A stretch of DNA of 64,000 nucleotides, taken from positions 13,843,951 through 13,907,950 of the forward strand of contig CAXKWD010000011.1 of NCBI GenBank assembly GCA_964059195.1, read 5' to 3'. Under the pieces are notes generated by a model that worked only from the letters and a program-made list of their open reading frames with translations, did not search any database and was not told the origin of the DNA. The stretch is from Ectobius pallidus. Taxonomy: Eukaryota; Arthropoda; Insecta; Blattodea; Ectobiidae. The position numbers and the translations under genes were made by a program. Shown piece by piece: positions 2,256-52,131 of this stretch; within the stretch, counting starts at the first letter, position 1; every line of letters begins with the position of its first letter.

Positions 2256-2685
2256 TAGGGATGGGTCCTCGATACTTTCGATACCTCGATACTCTCGATA
2301 CTTGCATGGTATCGGCATCGAACGATACTTCAGAAAAATCGCTCGATACTTTTTCGATACTTTTGTAATTCTGCAATTAAGTGAGAATGCTAATATTTTT
2401 TAACAAAAACTTGTAAGTGGACTATTTAAAAAACTAATTTTAGTTTTAATGTAGAGTTTAAAAATAATTATAGGCTACTGATGATATTAAATTTTGTCTC
2501 ATTAAATATGCAGACTTAATTAATTTAGTTGGTATTACACAGTTCTCTCAAATTTTCATTTTTAATGTACCTATTTATTGAAACTGGAAATGTTGAAGGT
2601 ATCGAGTATCGAAGTATCGAGTATCGAGGAAAAAATCATGTATCGGTATCGAGTAACGAGAAAATCTGGTATCGACCCATCCCTA
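2256..2685. mobile_element. hAT-type MITE, family A, copy 1 (430 bp, intact 8-bp TSD)
   Basis: The element begins TAGGGATGGG and ends CCCATCCCTA. It is flanked on both sides by the same 8-mer AATGAAAT (2248-2255 and 2686-2693). Eight-bp target-site duplications and a TAGGG-type terminus are hallmarks of the hAT superfamily. It has no coding capacity, so it is non-autonomous. Both subterminal regions carry clustered copies of the hexamer CGATAC, forward on the left and as GTATCG on the right, as expected for transposase-binding repeats. The sequence is nearly identical to the copies at 4630 and 7004. Confidence 0.9.
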
Positions 2686-3458: not shown

Positions 3459-3926
3459 TAGCAGGCGGATTTCTATGACATGTCATATTTTCCCCCTTTG
3501 CATTATTTCAGGTTTCCGACTAATTTAAACCCGATTCCAAGCATCCTGGTGAAAATGGAACGGCTTTTATTGTGCATATAACTGCATATTTAGGAAATTT
3601 TCAACGATTGTAGCATATTTAGTATGAATATGCATATATAGGTCATATTTTTGGCATATTTTTGTGCATATTAAAGAAATTTTGAAGTTTCATATCATAT
3701 TTTGTAAATTTTCCATTATAATGATACTTTTTGAGAATTTACAGATATTTTAAATAATTGACATTATATTTTAATAAAATGTATTGTAATGAAACTTAAA
3801 AAAAATATATATACAATGCGTAAGTGGTAAGTCATATTTTAAATGTTATTGGTCATATTTTAATGTTTTTAGGTCATAAATGCATGCATATATCCTATTT
3901 TTGAGGTCATAGAAATCCTCCCCCTA
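3459..3926 (+). mobile_element. hAT-type MITE, family B, copy 1 (intact TSD)
   Basis: The terminal inverted repeats pair GCGGATTTCTATGAC near the left end with GTCATAGAAATCCTCCCCC at the right end. The flanking 8-mers are identical: TTTATAGT at 3451-3458 and at 3927-3934. The left terminus has two substitutions relative to the family's TAGGGGGCGG start. The interior is non-coding and packed with CATATTT and GTCATA words. Other family-B copies are at 5833-6300, 16278-16741 (reverse), 19187-19632 and 51668-52131. Because it is present in both units, this copy inserted before the 2374-bp duplication. Confidence 0.9.
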
Positions 3927-4629: not shown

Positions 4630-5059
4630 TAGGGATGGGTCCTCGATACTTTCGATACCTCGATACTCTCGATACTTGCATGGTATCGGCATCGAACGAT
4701 ACTTCAGAAAACTCGCTCGATACTTTTTCGATACTTTTGTAATTCTGCAATTAAGTGAGAATGCTAATATTTTTTAACAAAAACTTGTAAGTGGACTATT
4801 TAAAAAACTAATTTTAGTTTTAATGTAGAGTTTAAAAATAATTATAGGCTACTGATGATATTAAATTTTGTCTCATTAAATATGCAGACTTAATTAATTT
4901 AGTTGGTATTACACAGTTCTCTCAAATTTTCATTTTTAATGTACCTATTTATTGAAACTGGAAATGTTGAAAGTATCGAGTATCGAAGTATCGAGTATCG
5001 AGGAAAAAATCATGTATCGGTATCGAGTAACGAGAAAATCTGGTATCGACCCATCCCTA
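4630..5059. mobile_element. hAT-type MITE, family A, copy 2 (recombinant, mismatched flanks)
   Basis: Same 430-bp element as copy 1, but its flanks differ: ATATTTAC on the left (4622-4629) and AATGAAAT on the right (5060-5067). The left 8-mer is the TSD of copy 3 and the right 8-mer is the TSD of copy 1. Internally, its left end shares the CAGAAAACTCGC variant with copy 3. From the GTGAGAATGC site rightward it shares the variants of copy 1. It is therefore a hybrid of the other two copies. Confidence 0.92.
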
Positions 5060-5832: not shown

Positions 5833-6300
5833 TAGCAGGCGGATTTCTATGACATGTCATATTTTCCCCCTTTGCATTATTTCAGGTTTCCGACTAATTT
5901 AAACCCGATTCCAAGCATCCTGGTGAAAATGGAACGGCTTTTATTGTGCATATAACTGCATATTTAGGAAATTTTCAACGATTGTAGCATATTTAGTATG
6001 AATATGCATATATAGGTCATATTTTTGGCATATTTTTGTGCATATTAAAGAAATTTTGAAGTTTCATATCATATTTTGTAAATTTTCCATTATAATGATA
6101 CTTTTTGAGAATTTACAGATATTTTAAATAATTGACATTATATTTTAATAAAATGTATTGTAATGAAACTTAAAAAAAATATATATACAATGCGTAAGTG
6201 GTAAGTCATATTTTAAATGTTATTGGTCATATTTTAATGTTTTTAGGTCATAAATGCATGCATATATCCTATTTTTGAGGTCATAGAAATCCTCCCCCTA
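5833..6300 (+). mobile_element. hAT-type MITE, family B, copy in duplication unit 2
   Basis: Exact-position duplicate (+2374 bp) of the element at 3459-3926, including the TTTATAGT target-site duplications at 5825-5832 and 6301-6308. It reached this position as passenger of the tandem duplication, not by its own transposition. Confidence 0.9.
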
Positions 6301-7003: not shown

Positions 7004-7419
7004 TAGGGATGGGTCCTCGATACTTTCGATACCTCGATACTCTCGATACTTGCATGGTATCGGCATCGAACGATACTTCAGAAAACTCGCTCGATACTTT
7101 TTCGATACTTTTGTAATTCTGCAATTAAGTGAGCATGCTAATATTTTTTAACAAAAACTTGTAAGTGGACTATTTAAAAAAACTAATTTTAGTTTTAATG
7201 TTGAGTTTAAAAATAATTATAGGCTACTGATGATATTAAATTTTGTCTCATTAAATATGCAGACTTAATTAATTTAGTTGGTATTACACAGTTCTCTAAA
7301 ATTTTAATTTTTAATGTACCTATTTATTGAAACTGGAAATGTTGAAGGTATCGAGTATCGAGGAAAAAATCATGTATCGGTATCGAGTAACGAGAAAATC
7401 TGGTATCGACCCATCCCTA
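7004..7419. mobile_element. hAT-type MITE, family A, copy 3 (intact TSD)
   Basis: TAGGGATGGG to CCCATCCCTA, flanked by identical 8-mers ATATTTAC at 6996-7003 and 7420-7427. Relative to copies 1 and 2 it has GAGCATGC for GAGAATGC, an extra A in an A-run, TTGAG for TAGAG, and lacks one GTATCGAA/GTATCGA repeat near its right end, making it shorter (416 bp). It represents an independent insertion of the same family at a different target. Confidence 0.92.
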
Positions 7420-15524: not shown

Positions 15525-16151
15525 TTATCGTAGGTAATGTAACGAAAAGTCCGGATTTTTTACCTGGTCAGTATATTTCGTTGCTGTAGTTTGGGAATCC
15601 CCTGTAGGATATATATAGATCTCTGTATTTTCTTTACTGAACACACCTCGAGTAAGAGATCGCAATGTGGGAGATGTGTTGCCCTGTCCATTACGGGACT
15701 TTATGCAGCTCTGCAAAGTCCACTCACTTCCTTGGAATAGTAGTGTAAAAGTGATATCTAACAGAAATCTCGTTTCAATAAACCAACTGGTAGGGGAGCC
15801 TTGATTTATATACCAAATAGAGCAAGTAAAATGATTTGAACAGAGCCAAGAAGTAGTTTGAAGTCTATTGTGTTCTGAAGACGAGGCTGATATTTTATCA
15901 TAAACCGGCGAAAGGATGCTTCCCATAAAGGAGAAATAGAGTTTAAATATTGGCAGTTGCTTATTCCAGCACCCTCTATGCAGTAGCCACGACAACTCTT
16001 CTTCATACTCCTGTTTCTTCTTCGATTTCCAATTCTTGCGGGAAAAGCCAAATAAATCCATAGTTGCTGCAGGAGAACTTAAAAGCAAGTCAGAGTCAAT
16101 ACAATGCAATACTTCTGGCAGTCCTTTATTCCTTTGAGATTGCGTCGGCAT
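15525..16151 (-). CDS. Unrecognised 208-codon ORF
   Basis: This is the longest ATG-to-stop frame in the window. The predicted protein has a basic/acidic patch near residues 37-52 (FSRKNWKSKKKQEYEEELSW), then a mixed Ser/Thr-rich composition with no repeated motif, signal peptide or clear membrane segment. I do not recognise the sequence. A second minus-strand frame (15806-16051) is open for 81 codons over the same bases, which argues for locally low stop density rather than selection. There are no adjacent exons and no obvious promoter. It lies just outside the left family-B MITE. It could be an untranslated host exon, a decayed TE gene or chance. Confidence 0.15.
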   Translation of the reverse strand: MPTQSQRNKGLPEVLHCIDSDLLLSSPAATMDLFGFSRKNWKSKKKQEYEEELSWLLHRGCWNKQLPIFKLYFSFMGSILSPVYDKISASSSEHNRLQTTSWLCSNHFTCSIWYINQGSPTSWFIETRFLLDITFTLLFQGSEWTLQSCIKSRNGQGNTSPTLRSLTRGVFSKENTEIYIYPTGDSQTTATKYTDQVKNPDFSLHYLR

Positions 16152-16277
16152 TTCTACATTGTATCAATAATAGCCACCGGGGCCGATAACTGTACCAATC
16201 AAACTAAAAATAGTAGAGAATAGTTAGAGCAAAAGAAGTAAATACATAAAAAATAAATAAAATATCATTCTTATAAC

Positions 16278-16741
16278 TAGGGGGAGGATTTCTATGACCT
16301 AAAAATAGGATATATGCATGCATTTATGACCTAAAAACATTAAAATATGACCAATAACATTTAAAATATGACTTTACCACTTACATATTGTATATATATT
16401 TTTTTAAGTTTCATTACAATACATTTTATTAAAATATAATGTTAATTATTTAAAATATCTTTAAATTCTCAAAACGTATCATTATAATGGAAAATTTACA
16501 AAATATATGAAACTTCAAAATGTCTTTAATATGCACACAAATATGCCAAAAATATGACCTAAATATGCATATTCATACTAAATATGCTACAATCGTTGAA
16601 AGTTTCCTAAATATGCAGTTATATGCACAATAAAAGCCGTTCCATTTTCACCAGGATGCTTGGAATCTGGTTTAAATTAGTCGGAAACCTGAAATAATGC
16701 AAAGGGGAAAAATATGACATGTCATCGAAATCCGCCCCCTA
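16278..16741 (-). mobile_element. hAT-type MITE, family B, reverse copy with unmatched flanks
   Basis: TAGGGGGAGGATTTCTATGAC at the left and GAAATCCGCCCCCTA at the right give family-B termini in reverse orientation. The flanks do not match: CTTATAAC on the left (16270-16277) and ATAATCAT on the right (16742-16749). Each flank is instead the reverse complement, or nearly so, of a flank of the oppositely oriented copy at 19187-19632. This shows that the DNA between the two copies has been inverted. Confidence 0.9.
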
Positions 16742-17144
16742 ATAATCATCATTTAACGAGGTCAATATTTTTACATGTGTATATATTTCATACACAATAC
16801 TCAAACAGATCACTGCCTCTGACTTTGGAAGAGGTGGACTACACTTAAATAAGAGAGGTGTATCAAAATTATATATCTATTTATTAGGGTAACTGAACAT
16901 GTAAGTGCAAAAAAGCTAGCTCCGAAACACAGCGGTAGAAATAATCACATTTTAATCGCCATAACCAAATTATAAAGGGATAATACTATAGGCCTACATT
17001 TAACTTTCAATAGATGTAAAATCAGTAAACGAATTAAGTGGGTTTAGGGGAATTTTTTTAAAATCTTCTTATAGAACAAGCATATTTTGATGAGTTCCTT
17101 AACCAACAGTTAATAGAGCACATGACAGTAATGTAAATTATCAT

Positions 17145-18423
17145 TGGTAATCCCACGAGAGTTTACGAGTTTATCGATAGATTCGCGACTGCGCAGCAGG
17201 AGCGAATTTATCTCATGCAACTCGTCAACTCGAGTTGGATTTATTAAGACTATTCAATGAATAAAAATCCACCAGATTATACAAATAATAATAACTTTCG
17301 TGCTTTGTTCTACAAAAACAAAACTAACAGCTGCGAGATCACGGCATACTATGAATCAACCGTCCATGAATCGATTCGAGCTGTTTTGGTGTAATCAGTG
17401 CTACCACCAGAGCATATAAGACATAGTTAGCTTCATTCAATTAAGCTAAAAGCAGAACAGAATAAACGCACACGAACTGGCTTGCACAGAATCGAAATTG
17501 TGTTCTTAATCAATGTACAATTCTATTATTTCAATTTCCAAACAAATTATGTTGTATGAAATAATCTGTTTTCGTGCCGCTTAGTGGCACCATCTGACTA
17601 TTAATCACTGCACACTGATACTTGCGTCTCCAGTAACGACCAGACCATTTTACCCGATAAAATGCCATCCTCGCGATTCCTACAAGAATATTGTAAGATA
17701 AACGGCCGTGATTGGTCTATATCCGAGGAATTGCTAAACGTTATTGGTCAATATCAAACACGCGGCGTATGAGTTGAATAGTCACTGGTAATCCCACGAG
17801 AGTTTACGAATTTATCGATAGATTCGCGACTACGCATCAGGAGCGAATTAATCTGATAAAACTCGTCAACTTAAGTTAGATTTATTAAGACTATTCCATG
17901 AATAAAAATGTGACGGGTTTACACTAATAATAATTACTTTCGTGCTTTGTTACATAAAAACAAAACTAACAGCTGGGAGACCACGGCATACTATGAGTCA
18001 ACCATCCATGAATCGATTTGGGTTACAATGCTATGGGCAGTGCTACCAATTGTGCATATAAGACATAGTTAACTTAATTCAGGTAAGCGAACGGCAGAAC
18101 AGAATAAAAGCACACGAACTGGCTTGCACCGAATCGAAATTGTTTTCAATCAATGTACATTTATATTATTTCAATTTCCAAACAAGTTATGTTGTATAAA
18201 ACAATGCGTTTTCGTGGAGCTTAATGGCAACTTGTGACGTATTAATCACGGCACATTGAAGCTTAGGGTCCAGTAACGAGCAGACCATTTTATCAGGTAG
18301 AACCCTTCCTCATGTTAGTAGCAAGCATTTTATAAGATAAACGATCGTATAAGATCTATATCCGAGGAATTGCTAAACGTTATTGGTCACTATCAAACAC
18401 GCAGCATATGAGTGGAATAGTCA
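17145..18423. repeat. Tandem dimer of a ~640-bp unit with LTR-like features
   Basis: Unit 1 is 17145-17784 and unit 2 is 17786-18423, separated by a single C. Both start TGGTAATCCCACGAGAGTTT and end AATAGTCA, with an estimated 85% identity. Each unit contains GCATATAAGACATAGTTA, followed about 40 bp later by AACAGAATAAA. This resembles a TATA box with a downstream polyadenylation signal, as in an LTR's U3-R-U5 order, and TG...CA ends fit an LTR. No gag-pol body, primer-binding site or flanking duplication is visible. A satellite dimer or duplicated promoter is therefore equally possible. Confidence 0.75.
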
Positions 18424-19178
18424 TTTTAAATATTTATTTTTTACGAACACTACATTCAATATAAGCTTATATCTTATATTTTTACCATCATATATTTATC
18501 ATATGTAAGCTATTCTTTCCACTACAACAGCTTTTAAAACTGCAAGTTGTATAATATATGCCCGCTCTAAATCGATGTGCATTAACTATAGCGCTATCAA
18601 GAAGGCGATATTTAGGTACACAGCAAAGCACCGCAGAACACACAAGGAAGCAGACTACAAACTGACTCCTGACTTGAAACCGGTCGGTTTAACGACTAAA
18701 GTCCGGTAAGTGGATTAAATACTTCTACCAAGACCTGCATAACAGACCTGACCACGAGAATAGGAACTCTCTAACTGCATAGACTGAATTAATTTTCATA
18801 TTAGTACAGTCTCACGCCCAACGGTGTGCTGAAGAAGGTATTTGAATTGCAAAACATGTGAAGATAAAACTTGAACAAAATTGAAGGAGGAAATTCCGGC
18901 CTAGTGTAACAACTTGGATTAAGACCTTCCAGTTCCCCTATGTCTCAAACAATCTAAAGATTCCATCTAATGTTCACAAATAGATTGACGCTGTAATTAC
19001 TAAAGCATGGATTCCAGGTTTCTCGACTAATGTAATATGTTATCTTGAATTTACATCTCGTTTTGAGTAATAAGTAATAGGGTTCTTCAAAGATAAGCAT
19101 CCGAAGGCTAAGCCAACTTACAAGCTAATTATTATGCTATCGGAAACTATTTAGGTAAAGAAACTGATACCGAAGCAA
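18424..19178. other. AT-rich stretch without gene
   Basis: No ORF of note, no TE termini and no repeats recognised between the dimer and the right family-B MITE. Confidence 0.5.
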
Positions 19179-19186
19179 GTTATAAG

Positions 19187-19632
19187 TAGGGGCGGATTTC
19201 TATGACATGTCATATTTTCCCCTTTGCATTATTTCAGGTTTCCGACTAATATAAACCCGATTCCAAGCATCCTGGTGAAAATGGATCGACTTTTATTGTG
19301 CATATAACTGCATATTTAGGAAATTTTCAACGATTGTAGCATATTTAGGTATATTTTTGGCATATTTATATGCCATTAAAGAAAGTTTGAAGTTTGATAT
19401 CATATTTTCTAAATTTTCCATTATAATGATACTTTTTGAGAATTTACAGATATTTTAAATAATAAACATTGTATTTTAATAATATGTATTGTAATGAAAC
19501 TTTATAAAAAGCATATACAATGTGTAAGTGGTAGTGTCATATTTTAAATGTTATTGGTCATATTTTAATGTTTTTTAGGTCATAAATGCATGCATATATC
19601 CTATTTTTTAGGTCATAGAAATCCTCCCCCTA
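19187..19632 (+). mobile_element. hAT-type MITE, family B, forward copy with unmatched flanks
   Basis: Starts TAGGGGCGGATTTCTATGAC and ends AGAAATCCTCCCCCTA. Flanks are GTTATAAG (19179-19186) and ATGATTGT (19633-19640), which do not match each other. They match the reverse complements of the flanks of the inverted copy at 16278-16741. Compared with the copy at 3459 it lacks about 20 bp in the GTATGAATATGCATATATAG region. Confidence 0.9.
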
Positions 19633-19697
19633 ATGATTGTCATACTTGTGATGGAAATGATTGATTTCTCTATGTTTTTGGTTTGTATAGTGTTGTG

Positions 19698-25365: not shown

Positions 25366-25930
25366 TTACTTACTTACTCAATGGCAATAGACATTTCCTA
25401 CGCAAGCTAAAGGAATATTATCTATTTTATGGAACCCGAAGGTTCATTGCCGTACTTACCTGAATCCGCCATTCAGCCCTATTCTGTGCTAACTCCATCC
25501 AATCATCCATCACAAATCCTACTTCCCTTAAGTCCAACTCCATCCAATCATCCCTCACAAATCCTACTTCTCTTAAATCGGTTCTAAGATTGTCCTCCCA
25601 CCTACGTCTAGGTCTTCCACGTAGTCTTTTCCCTTCGGGTCTCCCAGTCAATACTTTTGAGATATGTAATTCCTCCCCCATGCGTGCAACATGTCGAGCC
25701 CATTTCATCCTTCGCGAATTAATTACTCTTAATATATCCGGTGAAGCGTACAGGTCCTGAAGCTCATCGTTATGCAATTTTCTCCAGTCTCCATTTTCAT
25801 CCCTGTTTTCAAACACTCTCAGACTATGTTCTTCCTGATCAGTTAGCGGCCATGTCTCACATCCATATAATACACCCGGCAATATAATTTCCTCATTAAA
25901 ACTGTCCTTGTCCTCAACCAACCGATTCAT
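25366..25930 (-). mobile_element. LINE family 1, 5'-truncated copy with readable ORF 3' end
   Basis: A 167-codon frame (25427-25930, minus) carries, in order, ILPGVLYGCETW (residues 17-27), RRMKWARHVARM (73-84) and GRPRRRWEDNL (105-115), and ends in an AMNLRVP tail. In non-LTR retrotransposons the YGCETW block lies just downstream of the reverse transcriptase domain, so this is the C-terminal part of ORF2. The catalytic domain is missing because of the 5' truncation. The 3' UTR reaches ACTTACTTACT at about 25366 (TAAG tail on the minus strand), matching copy 1-290. Residues 118-132 are repeated in tandem as 133-147. Confidence 0.85.
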
Positions 25931-28484
25931 GTGCTCTATGCAATTAATATTAATCTATGAGAGTTAAATAACTTTTTGTGTCTGGGCCCCCTCAGCATAA
26001 TGCATGCATGTCCAAGGACCCCCTAGCCACAGAACATAGGTAATTTAGTAAACAAGAGACAAAACTTTGTAACATTACCGTGTTTAATTGTATTCCTATA
26101 ATACAAGCATAATATTTACTATCCAATCAACTTCTTGACGTTTTATTTAAGTTAATTTACATAAACATAAGTCTGAAATGCATAAATTAATATTATAAAA
26201 TAATATGACACTCGAGTTATAATTACATCAGTTAGGACCTGAAAACTTTGAGAAGATTCACTTGTTACAGTTGTTGCATCTATGGGGTGCTGTTTTCCAG
26301 TAGTAGCTGTAGTTCTGGTTTAAGCGTTGTCACTCGAAGCCGAAGATTAAACTTTACTTTAGCTGTGTGTGTTTTGATTTGTGTGAGAGTAGCAAAGATA
26401 TACCAACAAATGTATCAAATCGAATCTTCATTTTACTTAAAGTTTAAAAGTTTTGAAAAAGGGGTAGTATTGGGTAAATCTTGAAAAAACAATATTTATC
26501 ACTTTCTCTATGTGCCTTTCGAATATTGTAGTCGGCAATCTACGATTATTCCCAGGTACAATACAATGTACTCAATTTCTGTTCATGAATCCTACGTTAG
26601 TTCGCATCTGGCTATACACCAGGTAAACTATTTACCAATGATGACCAATTTACCGTGCGATTTCTCGTCCACTGTTACAGAGCTCCTAACAGTCCGCTGT
26701 TAACTTGTACCATATAAGAGTCGTAACTTCATAAGAGTTTCACATACTGTATGTAAGTTATACAACAGATAGTACCTAAATTTAAAATAAAGATCTATGA
26801 AGTGTGTATACCGTAAAATGTCCCTCTTTACGTAGGTACTTACGATTGCTATTGTAGATCCCTTGAATTATTGTCACGGGCCCTTGTGGTCTGCGGAAGA
26901 CATTTTGAGTGTGAATTACCTAGGGGATTTTACTGTAACTGGTGTATAGTAATCGTGGATGTCGACGTAAATAGTATCTCTGTATACTGTTTTGTAATTG
27001 TTTTACGGTTTCTATCTTATGTCAGCATTTTCTGAAGTTAGGAATATATTTTTGCGAGCCTCGATGGTGGTATAATGGTGAGTTCTCCTTGTTAACTTTA
27101 GGCGCTGTAATTGAAAATTTCGATTCTTATTCAGTGCTTTTCATGTCCTTTTCTTCTGAAATTCTGAATAAAAATCTTCGTTACAAAAATTTACACAGAT
27201 TATAGATTATATAGAGGGTGGAAAGTTTTTAAGGGAAAGGGTAGTTTATATTTCAGTTTTTGTCCTAGAAATTATAAGCAAAGATTACATTTCTTTCATA
27301 TTTTTAATCAGAATAACATAGAATAATCTACGGAAACGATTTTATCATATGTTAACGAATAATCATATGTTTTATTTCCAAATAAAATTTGATCCTCAAC
27401 TAGCCATATTCGTAAGCTACATAAATACATTTTGGTGTATGCAAATGTCTCAATCCTTTTGGTAAAAAAATCAAAATGGAAGAAAATATTTTAAAAATGT
27501 GTGAGGAAAGTTATGTGTGCTTGCGGACAAATTAATTAATTAATTAACTAAATATGTGGAATGAAAGTAATTTATTGTTTTAAAACTAGGCCTATATAAA
27601 TGTCGCTTTCAGATGACATAAAACATGGAAAACATGATTTTTAAAGGAAAATTTGAGGTAAGAACATGAGAGGATTCGGTCCACGATAAACCTTAGCATC
27701 GGGAATCGAACAAAGAACTCCTTAGGGCTTTCATCGACCGGGTCGGTGTACATGTCCTAGACGAGCGTAGGTTTATGCTTTTCAACGTAATACTCTGAAC
27801 GTGTTTGCGCTGGAGTGCATAAATGTATAAATTCAAAACAAACAATGAATGAGCTATCCTCGTTGGAATAAGCCCATATCTTGAATCTACCTCAAATATA
27901 TGTAGCCTATGTATGTTTAATGCATCAGACGTGCATCCCAAAGGATTTGTTTCCTCTGTGTCTGTTCCTTGGCTCAGCTTTTGTTTTCACCTCTGTTCTC
28001 ATTTTCTGTCCTTCGCGTAAAGGGAGCCCACAGAATCTTTGTGAATTTTAAATTCATTTCCCTACAACTGAGAATAGTGTTTTAGAGCAATGGTTCTCAA
28101 ACATCTTATTGATTATGACTTTAAGACCAAAATAAATTAGTCTTAGCGGCATATGTGTAAATAATTATTATATCGTAAAGAACCATATTAAATTATCACT
28201 GTTTTCATTTGGTATACGTTTAATACAATGTTTTGGGTTTCTTACTTTATTTAATATTACACGTGTTTTTACCCTGAGGACGCACTGATACAGTTAAGCA
28301 GTGATAGAAGAAGGAGGAAGGCATCACTTTCAGCAGAAAACATGTCTTGCGGGTGGTAAAAACTAGCAGCCATTTTCTACCGTTCATTGAAAGTTAATAA
28401 TCCATTTATGGAAAATTGATTACGTTCAGGGAAAAAATAGATAAGAGTGTATGTTATATGTATTTTCATGAAACTAATATCAAA
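25931..28484. other. Intergenic stretch without gene
   Basis: A GGCCCCC / GGACCCCC pair at 25985-26025 is reminiscent of hAT subterminal sequence but has no partner. A tRNA-like CCTCGATGGTGGTATAATGG at 27059 has no matching B box. CAATGGTTCTCAAAC at 28088-28102 resembles a hAT terminus without a right end. ORFs here (82 codons or fewer) are unrecognised. Confidence 0.45.
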
Positions 28485-28490
28485 ATACTA

Positions 28491-29224
28491 GGGGAGTCCG
28501 AAAATTAGTTTCTCCTGACGATTGTGTAGGCTACTGAGGTGTGGATGAAAGACAAAAAAAAAAAATATAATGAGACATTAAAGATAAGACGTACCTTTGT
28601 TTTTTCACATAATTACCACGTACATTGAGATATTTGTCATACTGCTTTAGATGCTTCAAAAAGCCCTCCAGGAAAAAGTCAGGAAGCCCGAATCGAATGC
28701 CGCATCTATGAGAATGGAAACATCCGTCATCACCATCACTGCTACCCGGTACTGTCACAACCTGTCGAAATTGAAGGAGTTTCGAAAAAAGCGGTCTGGC
28801 CTTCTCCAATCAGGCGTTCTGTTGTTGGATAACGATGCGAGACCACACTCGGCGACGGCAACGCAAAACCATATTTCAAATCTTGGTTGGGAGCGCCTAG
28901 CCCATCCGCCATACAGTCCTGATCTCGCACCCGGTGACATCCATTTGTTTCCGGCTTTGAAGAAGACTCTTGGCGGAAGGCGCTTTGGGAGCACTGATGA
29001 CGTCACACAATCCTTTCGACGCTTCTTCCGTATGCAAAGCCCTGATTTTTCCTGGAGGGCTTTTTGAAGTTTCTAAAGCGGTATGACAAATGTCTCAATG
29101 TACGTCGTAATTATGTGGAATTATAAAGGTACGTCTTACCTTTAATGTCTCATTGTATTTTTGCCTTTCATCCACACCTCTGTACATAGTCGCCAGGGGT
29201 AACTTATTTTCGGACTCAACCCCG
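28491..29224 (+). mobile_element. Mariner-like element M1, fold-back deletion derivative
   Basis: The left end GGGGAGTCCGAAAATTAG is preceded by TA (28489-28490). The right end CGGACTCAACCCC is followed by TA (29225-29226), as expected for mariner target duplications. The two ends are inverted copies over about 185-195 bp (28491-28683 against 29041-29224), far longer than typical mariner TIRs. The arms include the words GAGGTGTGGATGAAAG and AAAAAGCCCTCCAGGAAAAA. The right arm holds the transposase C-terminal coding region, so the left arm encodes the same C-terminus on the opposite strand. Confidence 0.88.
28651..29067 (+). pseudogene. Mariner transposase fragment (M1)
   Basis: The 138-codon frame begins inside the left arm. 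From about residue 27 it reads as the middle and C-terminal part of a mariner (DD34D) transposase: RYCHNLSKLK (33-42), a LLLDNDARPHSA block (57-68) and WERLAHPPYSPDLAP (80-94), with the third catalytic aspartate at residue 96. The usual HDNARPH motif is altered to DNDARPH. Counted from the third Asp, the expected Asp position (61) is Asn, and Asp flanks it on both sides; this looks like a lost His codon plus an extra Asp codon. The N-terminal DNA-binding half and first catalytic Asp are absent. The frame ends in the right arm. Not functional. Confidence 0.85.
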
Positions 29225-35370: not shown

Positions 35371-35628
35371 AGTAAGTAAAAAAAGTAAAGTGTTCCCTAT
35401 ACAGACCATGGAGGCCCTGAGGGTTACAGAAGGTTAAAGCTCCCAGATTTTTAGACTATTGGCACATGAGGGTGGTATGGTTGTCAGCCTTACGCAGCCT
35501 TGCCAGGATTGCTCCTGGTACTCATTTCTGTTAGGGGCTGAGTCTACCCCAGGGCCACATTGCCACCAGAAGGATTAGGCCAATTGAAAAACTCCAACGA
35601 CCTCATCGGGGATAGAACCCGCGACCTT
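35371..35628 (-). repeat. tRNA-derived SINE, family S1, 5'-truncated
   Basis: Minus-strand copy. The tail lies at the left (TAAAAAAAGTAAAGTG) and the body matches 42774-43083 through GGATTGCTCCTGGTACTCAT and AGGCCAATTGAAAAACTCC. Homology stops just after the B-box region (AACCCGCGACCTT, about 35615-35628), so the A-box half is lost. Confidence 0.85.
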
Positions 35629-41358: not shown

Positions 41359-41654
41359 AAAGTAAAGTAAAGTATTCCCTATACTGGCCCAGACGGTTCC
41401 AGGAGCTGAGGCTCCAAGCGTTAAGACATTCGGAACTTGAAGGTGGTAAGGTTGTAAGCCTTACGCACCGGCCATCTTTACCCCAGGATTGCTCCTGTTA
41501 CCCATTTCTGTTAGAAGCTGAGTCAACCCCAGCCCCATAGTGCCACCAGAAGGATTAGGCCAATTGAAAAACTCGAACGACCTCATCGGAGATCGAACCC
41601 GCGACCTTCCGGTTTGTTGCGCAGGGCCTCAGCCACTACGCTACGGCGTACCCC
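41359..41654 (-). repeat. tRNA-derived SINE, family S1, full length with TSD
   Basis: Minus-strand copy. The tail is at the left (AAGTAAAGTAAAGTATTCCC) and the head at the right (CCACTACGCTACGGCGTACC, the A-box region). It is flanked by ATATGCAGGTATA (41346-41358) and ATATGCAAGTATA (41655-41667), a 13-bp target-site duplication with one mismatch. The B box reads GATCGAACCCGC on this strand. The 65-codon plus ORF over it is a by-product. Confidence 0.92.
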
Positions 41655-41667
41655 ATATGCAAGTATA

Positions 41668-42759: not shown

Positions 42760-42773
42760 TACTACAGTATATG

Positions 42774-43083
42774 GGGGTACGCCGTAGCGTAGTGGTTGAG
42801 GTGCTGCGCTGCAAACCGGAAGGTCGCGGGTTCGATTCCCGATGAGGTCGTTGGAGTTTTTCAATTGGCCTAATCCTTCTGGTGGCACTATGGTCCTGGG
42901 GTCGACTCAGCCTCCAACAGAAATGAGTACCAGGAGCAATCCTGGTGGTAAAGGCGGCCGGTGCGTAAGGCTGAAAACCTTACCACCTTTACGTGCCGAA
43001 TGTCCAAAATCTGGGAGCCTCAACCTCCTGGAACCCTCTGGGCCTCCATGGCCTGTATAGGGATCACTTTACTTTACTTTTTT
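42774..43083 (+). repeat. tRNA-derived SINE, family S1, full length with perfect TSD
   Basis: The RNA polymerase III A box TAGCGTAGTGG (42785-42795) and a perfect B box GGTTCGATTCC (42829-42839) lie in a tRNA-like head. The body carries GGCCTAATCCTTCTGGTGGC and GGAGCAATCCTGG, and the tail is CACTTTACTTTACTTTTTTT. The 14-bp direct repeat TACTACAGTATATG flanks the element exactly (42760-42773 and 43084-43097), proving insertion by target-primed retrotransposition. SINEs rely on a partner LINE for mobility; which one is not visible. ORFs over it are by-products. Confidence 0.95.
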
Positions 43084-49027: not shown

Positions 49028-49968
49028 ACGAGGGTCGTTCAATAAGTAATGCAACACATTTTTTCTCTTAGAGGAGGTTGGTTTTATTCAGGATTCGAAT
49101 ACAACATATTATTCCCCAATCTTTTGGCTACAAAACCCTATTTTTCAACATCATCTCCGTTCAATGCTACAGCCTTACGCCACCTTAATGGGAGGGCCTG
49201 TATGACTGCATGGTACCACTCTCATCTGTGCGGAATTGGTTGCTCGTTATGAGGCTGATGGTGAAAATTTCTTGTCAAACATTGTCACAGGCGATGAAAC
49301 ATGGGTTCATCACTTCGAACCAGAAACAAAACGGCAATCCATGGAGTGGCACCACACCAACTCTCCTTTGAAGAAAAAGTTCAAAGCCATACCCTCAGCT
49401 GGTAAAGTCATGGCTACGGTCTTCTGGCACTCTGAAGGGGTTATTCTGTTCGATATCCTTCCTCATGGTGAAACGATCAACTCTGAAGAGTATTGTGCTA
49501 CTCTAAGGAAATTGAAGAAACGACTTCAGTGTGTTCATCGCCACAAAAATGCAAACGAACTTCTCATTCTCCATGATAACGCAAGGCCTCACACAAGTCT
49601 GAGCACTCGAAAGGAGCTCACAAAACTTCAGTAGACTGTTCTTCCTCATTCACCCTACAGCCCGGATCTCGCACCTCCTGACTTCCACCTGTTTGGCCCG
49701 ATGAAGGATGCACTTTGTGGATGATGGGGATGTTATTGATGCAGCAAGACGTTGCCTCTGACATAGACCAGTAGAGTGGTACCATGCAGGCATACAGGCC
49801 CTCCCATTAAGGTGCCGTAAGGCTGTAGCATTGAACGGAGATCATGTTGAAAAATAGGGTTTTGTAGCCAAAAGATTGGGGAATAATATGTTGTATTCGA
49901 ATCCTGAATAAAACCAACCTGCTCTAAGAAAAAAAAATGTGTTGCATTACTTATTGAACGACCCTCGT
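49028..49968 (+). mobile_element. Mariner-like element M2, fold-back deletion derivative
   Basis: The ends ACGAGGGTCGTTCAATAAG and CTTATTGAACGACCCTCGT are mariner-type termini next to TA-rich flanks. The inverted arms are about 195 bp (49028-49222 and 49773-49968) with only a handful of mismatches. They include GGGAGGGCCTGTATG and ATTCGAATACAACATATTAT. The right arm encodes the transposase C-terminus (WYHAGIQALPLR), so the left arm is an inverted copy of the coding right end. The centre keeps the catalytic core. The high arm identity suggests the youngest of the three mariner relics. Confidence 0.9.
49227..49734 (+). pseudogene. Mariner transposase catalytic core (M2), nonsense-mutated
   Basis: The frame 49236-49634 begins VARYEADGENFLSNIVTGDETW with the first catalytic Asp at residue 20. 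The second Asp is at 114 in LHDNARPH. A TAG stop at codon 133 (49632-49634) sits where mariners usually have Trp. The same frame then continues TVLPHSPYSPDLAPPDFHLF, placing the third Asp exactly 34 residues after the second, so this is a DD34D family with its triad preserved by spacing. A further stop follows DALCG. The N-terminal HTH half is missing. Inactive because of truncation and stops. Confidence 0.9.
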
Positions 49969-51667: not shown

Positions 51668-52131
51668 TAGGGGGCTGATTTCTATGACATGTTACATTTT
51701 TCCCCTTTGCATTATTTCAGGTTTCCGAGTAATTTAAACCCGATTCCAAACATCCTGATGAAAATGGAACGGCTTTTATTGTGCATATAACTGCATATTT
51801 TGGAAATTTTCAACCATTGTAGCATATTTAGTATGGATATGCATATTTAGGTCATATTTTTGGCATATTGGTTTGCGTGTTAAAGAAATTTTGAAGTTTC
51901 ATATCATATTTTGTAAATTTGGCATTATAATGATTCATTTTAAGAATTTACAGATATTTTAAATAATTAACATTATATTTTAATAAATTTAATTTCAATG
52001 CAACTTAAAAAAATATACTCAATGTGTAAGTGGTAAAGTCATATTTTAAATTTTATTGCTCATATTTTAATGTTTTTTAGGTCATAAATGCATGCATATA
52101 TCCTATTTTTAGGTCATAGAAATCCCCCCTA
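51668..52131 (+). mobile_element. hAT-type MITE, family B, copy with intact TSD
   Basis: TAGGGGGCTGATTTCTATGAC to GTCATAGAAATCCCCCCTA, flanked by identical CAAATCAT (51660-51667 and 52132-52139). At 464 bp it is close to the length of the 3459 copy. The interior is the same CATATTT-rich non-coding sequence with scattered substitutions, so it is an older insertion than the identical pair in the duplication. Confidence 0.92.

Follow-up and report, generated by a model that had tools for sequence, protein, structure and literature searches.

In a 64,000-nucleotide stretch of Ectobius pallidus DNA (hereafter the window), two nearly full-length copies of a single MITE family, L and R, lie in opposite orientation and carry 8-bp target site duplications (TSDs) that have been exchanged between them. 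Very probably, the two copies inserted in opposite orientation, and an ectopic homologous crossover between them later inverted 2.4-3.4 kb. A first-pass annotation of the same DNA had proposed an inversion between inverted MITEs, and this is still the simplest account of exchanged TSDs whose crossed partners match at 8/8 and 7/8 positions. The features discussed are collected in Table 1.

Table 1. Features of the window, with positions counted from its first nucleotide
Feature	Position	Strand	Description
MITE L	16278-16741	+	464 bp; ends TAGGGGGAGGATTTCTATGAC ... GTCATCGAAATCCGCCCCCTA
MITE R	19187-19632	-	446 bp; family of L; internal deletion of ~20 bp
Flank outside L head	16270-16277	+	8 bp, CTTATAAC; outer copy of TSD 1
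Flank inside L tail	16742-16749	+	8 bp, ATAATCAT; probable inverted inner copy of TSD 2
Flank inside R tail	19179-19186	+	8 bp, GTTATAAG; probable inverted inner copy of TSD 1
Flank outside R head	19633-19640	+	8 bp, ATGATTGT; outer copy of TSD 2
Minimum inverted segment	16742-19186		2445 bp; as indicated by the TSD exchange
Longest L/R identical run	L 16333-16372; R 19536-19575	+ (L); - (R)	40 bp; one of several candidate crossover tracts
Control MITE A	3459-3926	-	L/R family; own TSD ACTATAAA, 8/8
MITE B	5833-6300		passenger duplicate of A
Control MITE E	51668-52131	-	L/R family; own TSD ATGATTTG, 8/8
CGATAC-rich MITE (other family), copy 1	2256-2685		flanks AATGAAAT/AATGAAAT (A/A)
CGATAC-rich MITE, copy 2	4630-5059		flanks ATATTTAC/AATGAAAT (B/A)
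CGATAC-rich MITE, copy 3	7004-7419		flanks ATATTTAC/ATATTTAC (B/B)
Dispersed repeat, three copies	41386-41658; 42769-43044; also 35382-35628		first two inverted, 88% identical
Probable mariner-like element	49028-49968		inverted repeats of ~196 bp, 97% identical, around mariner-type transposase frame
Probable decayed Tc1/mariner-type element	28494-29217		inverted repeats (84%) around frame with weak DDE_3 match

Flanks and target-site length of the MITE family

The four 8-mers that border L and R lie exactly where the first-pass annotation had placed them, and neither element is bounded by a matching pair, the own flanks of L agreeing at 4/8 positions and those of R at 3/8. Read in element orientation and paired crosswise, the head flank of L and the tail flank of R are identical (CTTATAAC/CTTATAAC, 8/8), and the head flank of R differs from the tail flank of L by a single transition (ACAATCAT/ATAATCAT, 7/8), the imperfection of this second pair being a point against an inversion. 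The crossed pairing described earlier is thus reproduced, and the flipped order would provide the two MITEs with these TSDs.

A blastn search of the window with L located the family in five places, namely L, R and three further copies (A, B and E). The copies are 446-468 bp long and have consensus ends TAGGGGG(A/C)GGATTTCTATGAC, from which single copies depart slightly. With gaps counted, L is 96.1% identical to A and B, 91.4% to E and 88.8% to R. Over ungapped columns, L and R differ at 28/437, A and L at 13/458 and A and R at 22/440, and the three pairs that involve E differ at 35/457, 36/455 and 46/437, all above L/R. Whichever two of A, E, L and R are compared (six pairs), divergence is greater in the middle of the element (alignment columns 99-310) than at either end; because this divergent middle is common to all six pairs, the uneven divergence of L and R is no signal of recombination.

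The short terminal inverted repeats and small size of these copies fit a MITE of the hAT superfamily, and none of the 10 stop-to-stop frames of at least 120 aa in the window overlaps L or R. We regard the family as probably of hAT type, a label that draws on the 8-bp TSD and on ends that we take to resemble those of hAT elements, with no transposase behind it. TSDs of this length are also possible in other superfamilies, and the hAT target consensus NTNNNNAN fits CTTATAAC and ATAATCAT and misfits ACTATAAA, ATGATTTG and ACAATCAT. Searches of viral and prokaryote contigs with two exact patterns of the family gave no match, nor did a distant blastn search of phages with L as query, as would be expected of DNA of probable animal origin. 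Rfam gave no match at the gathering threshold.

Two independent controls bear on TSD length, A (with B) and E, A and B being counted as one because they represent a single insertion copied within a direct duplication with a period of 2374 bp. Over the 12 lengths tested (2 to 13), A and E match in full at length 8 alone, and it is only at this length that both crossed L/R pairs are either full or one mismatch short of it; at length 2, one pair scored 2/2 and the other 0/2. All of A, E, L and R start and finish in TA, and a Tc1/mariner-like reading of TAGGGGG...CCCCCTA, in which TA would itself be the TSD, was rejected on account of the perfect 8-bp repeats that A and E carry directly outside their TA...TA. 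The first-pass annotation had held that a TSD length other than 8 would speak against the inversion, an objection that fails because A and E are perfect at 8 bp and at no other length.

Proposed history of the inverted segment

Two copies of a nonautonomous, probably hAT-type MITE would first have inserted with opposite orientations at sites ~2.4 kb from each other, one insertion duplicating the 8-bp target CTTATAAC and the other the 8-bp target ATGATTRT. At a later time the inverted copies would have undergone a non-allelic homologous crossover, either within one chromatid or between two, that flipped 2.4-3.4 kb, namely the intervening segment and the inner part of both MITEs; each element would since be bordered by its own TSD on one side and by that of its partner on the other. 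We infer not only the inversion but also its homologous-recombination mechanism and that the present order is the derived one. The inverted tract given by the first-pass annotation, 16742-19186, stands as a minimum, to which the inner part of each element is to be added because the crossover would fall inside the MITEs. Between the two MITEs, positions 17136-18423 hold an imperfect tandem duplication of two ~640-bp units that are about 84% identical.

An inversion is favored because A and E keep perfect TSDs of their own while L and R are without theirs, because the TSD pattern equals that of Galileo 2z3 (PMC2775673) and because a second set of MITEs in the window shows the TSD pattern of a MITE-MITE crossover (see below). 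The evidence for ectopic recombination in the Galileo study comprised opposite orientation, exchanged TSDs and chimeric copies (PMC2775673), and both of the first two, opposite copies of the same family and exchanged TSDs, are found at L/R. In Galileo 2z3 of Drosophila buzzatii, as here, such opposite copies lie at the ends of the segment with their TSDs exchanged and reverse-complemented. Galileo differs in belonging to the P-superfamily, with long repetitive TIRs and 7-bp TSDs compared with the 8-bp TSDs seen here. In addition, 2z3 is a natural chromosomal inversion for which non-inverted chromosomes were sequenced and chimerism was shown (PMC2775673), whereas the present case spans 2.4 kb in one arrangement, with no chimerism seen in a test of little power.

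In a comparison based on hand-picked private substitutions (7 for L and 16 for R), none of 19 cut points showed a reciprocal switch between L and R (lowest Fisher p 0.209), a test with little power because there are just three other copies, one of them a duplicate. The identical runs shared by L and R now reach 40 bp at most, which counts against a homologous crossover, 40 bp of identity being short for efficient homologous recombination; at the time of the crossover L and R would have been more alike. The rank of L/R among the pairwise divergences, together with site likenesses of up to 6/8 (see below), slightly strengthens the alternative explanations.

Misorientation can arise at inverted repeats of ~450 bp, and the true segment might be oppositely oriented with intact TSDs and have been misoriented between the two MITEs by assembly, a restored order giving TSDs of 8/8 and 7/8. 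Such an artefact is nevertheless improbable, given that the window is free of N, so that no scaffold gap lies at the MITEs, and that L and R are 88.8% identical and share no longer run than the one in Table 1, so that longer reads or k-mers separate them.

Excision of hAT elements usually leaves a footprint, and the 8/8 junction is without one, which argues against an origin linked to transposase, either by a cut at the facing tail ends with re-ligation of the inner segment in inverted orientation or by reversed-ends or hybrid-element transposition. We consider these routes highly improbable, although the inner TSD copies would likewise be exchanged if the segment were cut out and flipped at the facing ends, and the chimerism that such a route would not require was not detected between L and R (with little power, given the few other copies). 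A cut and flip by transposase at the facing ends is also less economical than a crossover. Inversions by alternative transposition are indeed known from hAT elements, which in the maize Ac/fAc system lie at inversion junctions and have 8-bp TSDs (PMC8225341), a likeness to L and R. However, the maize inversions are made by transposase from directly oriented elements, as described for reversed-ends transposition, and leave new matching TSDs, whereas L and R are inverted, with their own flanks unmatched and their TSDs exchanged. The same source describes NAHR between inversely oriented elements as also inverting the inner TSDs, with TSDs usually non-identical afterward (PMC8225341). Under the model of a hybrid insertion from one site the copies should be identical (PMC2775673), whereas 28 of 437 ungapped columns differ between L and R.

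Inversions by ectopic recombination between transposable elements are already established (PMC2775673), with a MITE case included (PMC6278893) and hAT MITEs suggested (PMC12368964). In the virilis phylad of Drosophila, the MITE DAIBAM lies at inversion breakpoints and is regarded by the authors as a substrate for ectopic recombination, which resembles the situation at L/R; it differs in being another MITE and in that the chromosomal inversions came from alignment of multi-species or strain genomes (PMC6278893, the text of which does not contain the phrase "target site duplication"). In Atlantic cod, hAT-derived MITEs have likewise been suggested to drive inversions via ectopic recombination, but there the inversions are large and their breakpoints carry tandem arrays of the elements (PMC12368964), in contrast to the pair of single copies with exchanged TSDs described here. 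Literature searches on exchanged or swapped TSDs led to the Galileo paper (PMC2775673) and to PMC3355041. REANNOTATE, considered as a means to detect inversions from TSDs, is described as not checking TSDs (PMC2672092).

Site preference and the chance of a crossed match

The probability of finding an 8/8 match together with a match of at least 7/8 had been called tiny in the first-pass annotation, and it is so under each null model applied, with estimates from 5.3e-8 to 4.1e-5. The lowest value takes all 8-mers of the window; 8-mers with at least six A/T give 6.1e-7 and those of the form NTNNNNAN give 6.4e-6. The highest comes from a matrix built on both strands of the sites that the family itself occupies and is pessimistic because the tested sites are included in the matrix. 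In a grid of shifted frames with the observed frame included, L-head/R-tail reached 8/8 in 12/160,801 frame pairs and L-tail/R-head reached at least 7/8 in 226/160,801.

Comparison of the flanks of A, L, R and E in element orientation gave 28 pairs, of which only the own pair of A, the own pair of E and the two crossed L/R pairs score 7 or 8, the remaining 24 scoring 5 at most. In the opposite orientation the best score among the 28 is 6/8, reached by the R-head and L-tail flanks against the TSD of E and by the L-head flank against the R-tail flank. The flank of A agrees with the L-head flank at 5/8, and CTTATAAC is itself palindromic at 6/8. The sites of the family may thus share a weak preference, one too weak for the observed pattern. 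The inversion is further favored by the low probability that substitutions would reduce an own TSD to 4/8 matches or fewer, which is 0.00015 if each copy has diverged by 2%, 0.002 if by 4% and 0.045 if by 10%.

That L and R each lost their own TSD and gained crossed matches by coincidence, through an AT-rich target preference, draws on the likenesses of A to L-head, of L-tail and R-head to E and of CTTATAAC to its own reverse complement, but is exceedingly improbable, as the pessimistic family matrix still gives 4e-5, flanks of different insertions other than the crossed L/R pairs agree at 6/8 at most in either orientation and A and E have kept perfect TSDs.

Other repeats and a second exchange between MITEs

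A Pfam search took in 4 of the 10 long frames (at least 120 aa, stop-to-stop). Frame 49206-49631 matched Transposase_1 (PF01359, E 1.3e-20), and the surrounding element is probably a fairly young mariner-like element. Frame 28651-29064 gave a DDE_3 match below the curated cut-off (E 1.4e-4), and the region in which it lies is probably a decayed element of Tc1/mariner type. Frames 15525-16160 and 25427-25951 gave no Pfam match. The dispersed repeat listed in Table 1 has what we take to be a SINE-like look.

The first-pass annotation had also pointed to a second recombination product in the window, a duplication that involves a different MITE family, and here the TSDs are as expected. The three CGATAC-rich MITE copies surround a 2.37-kb tandem duplication, and their TSDs (A/A, B/A and B/B, letters referring to the flanks in Table 1) are arranged as they would be if copies 1 and 3 had taken part in an unequal crossover. 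The middle copy agrees with copy 3 at alignment column 83 and with copy 1 at columns 131, 173, 199, 295 and 303 as well as over the 15-column gap of copy 3 (345-359), and has one private base, at column 344. This is consistent with a hybrid, the left side of which rests on one site plus the TSD; the right-hand differences from copy 3 could be later changes in copy 3. Because the left side offers a single site and the differences on the right may have arisen later in copy 3, it is the TSDs that carry the argument. Reversed-ends transposition of hAT elements can also yield tandem duplications (PMC3744419). A crossover within the L/R family was rejected as the source of the A/B duplication, since the repeat that contains MITEs A and B has copies of another MITE at its boundaries.

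As a single event, the L/R inversion would be no surprise to a specialist, being a small-scale case of a known rearrangement route. It provides a clean MITE-mediated micro-inversion, the earlier orientation of which is evident from a single genome, with no outgroup needed. Taken with the duplication in the other family, it suggests that MITE-MITE exchange over a few kilobases may be commoner than usually counted. We put forward only tentatively, as a rather doubtful proposition, that recombination between short hAT-type MITEs is frequent enough in this genome for traces of two events, in two families, to persist within 64 kb. If true, a genome-wide count of mismatched and exchanged TSDs would record the micro-inversions, duplications and deletions driven by MITEs and would need no comparison with relatives.
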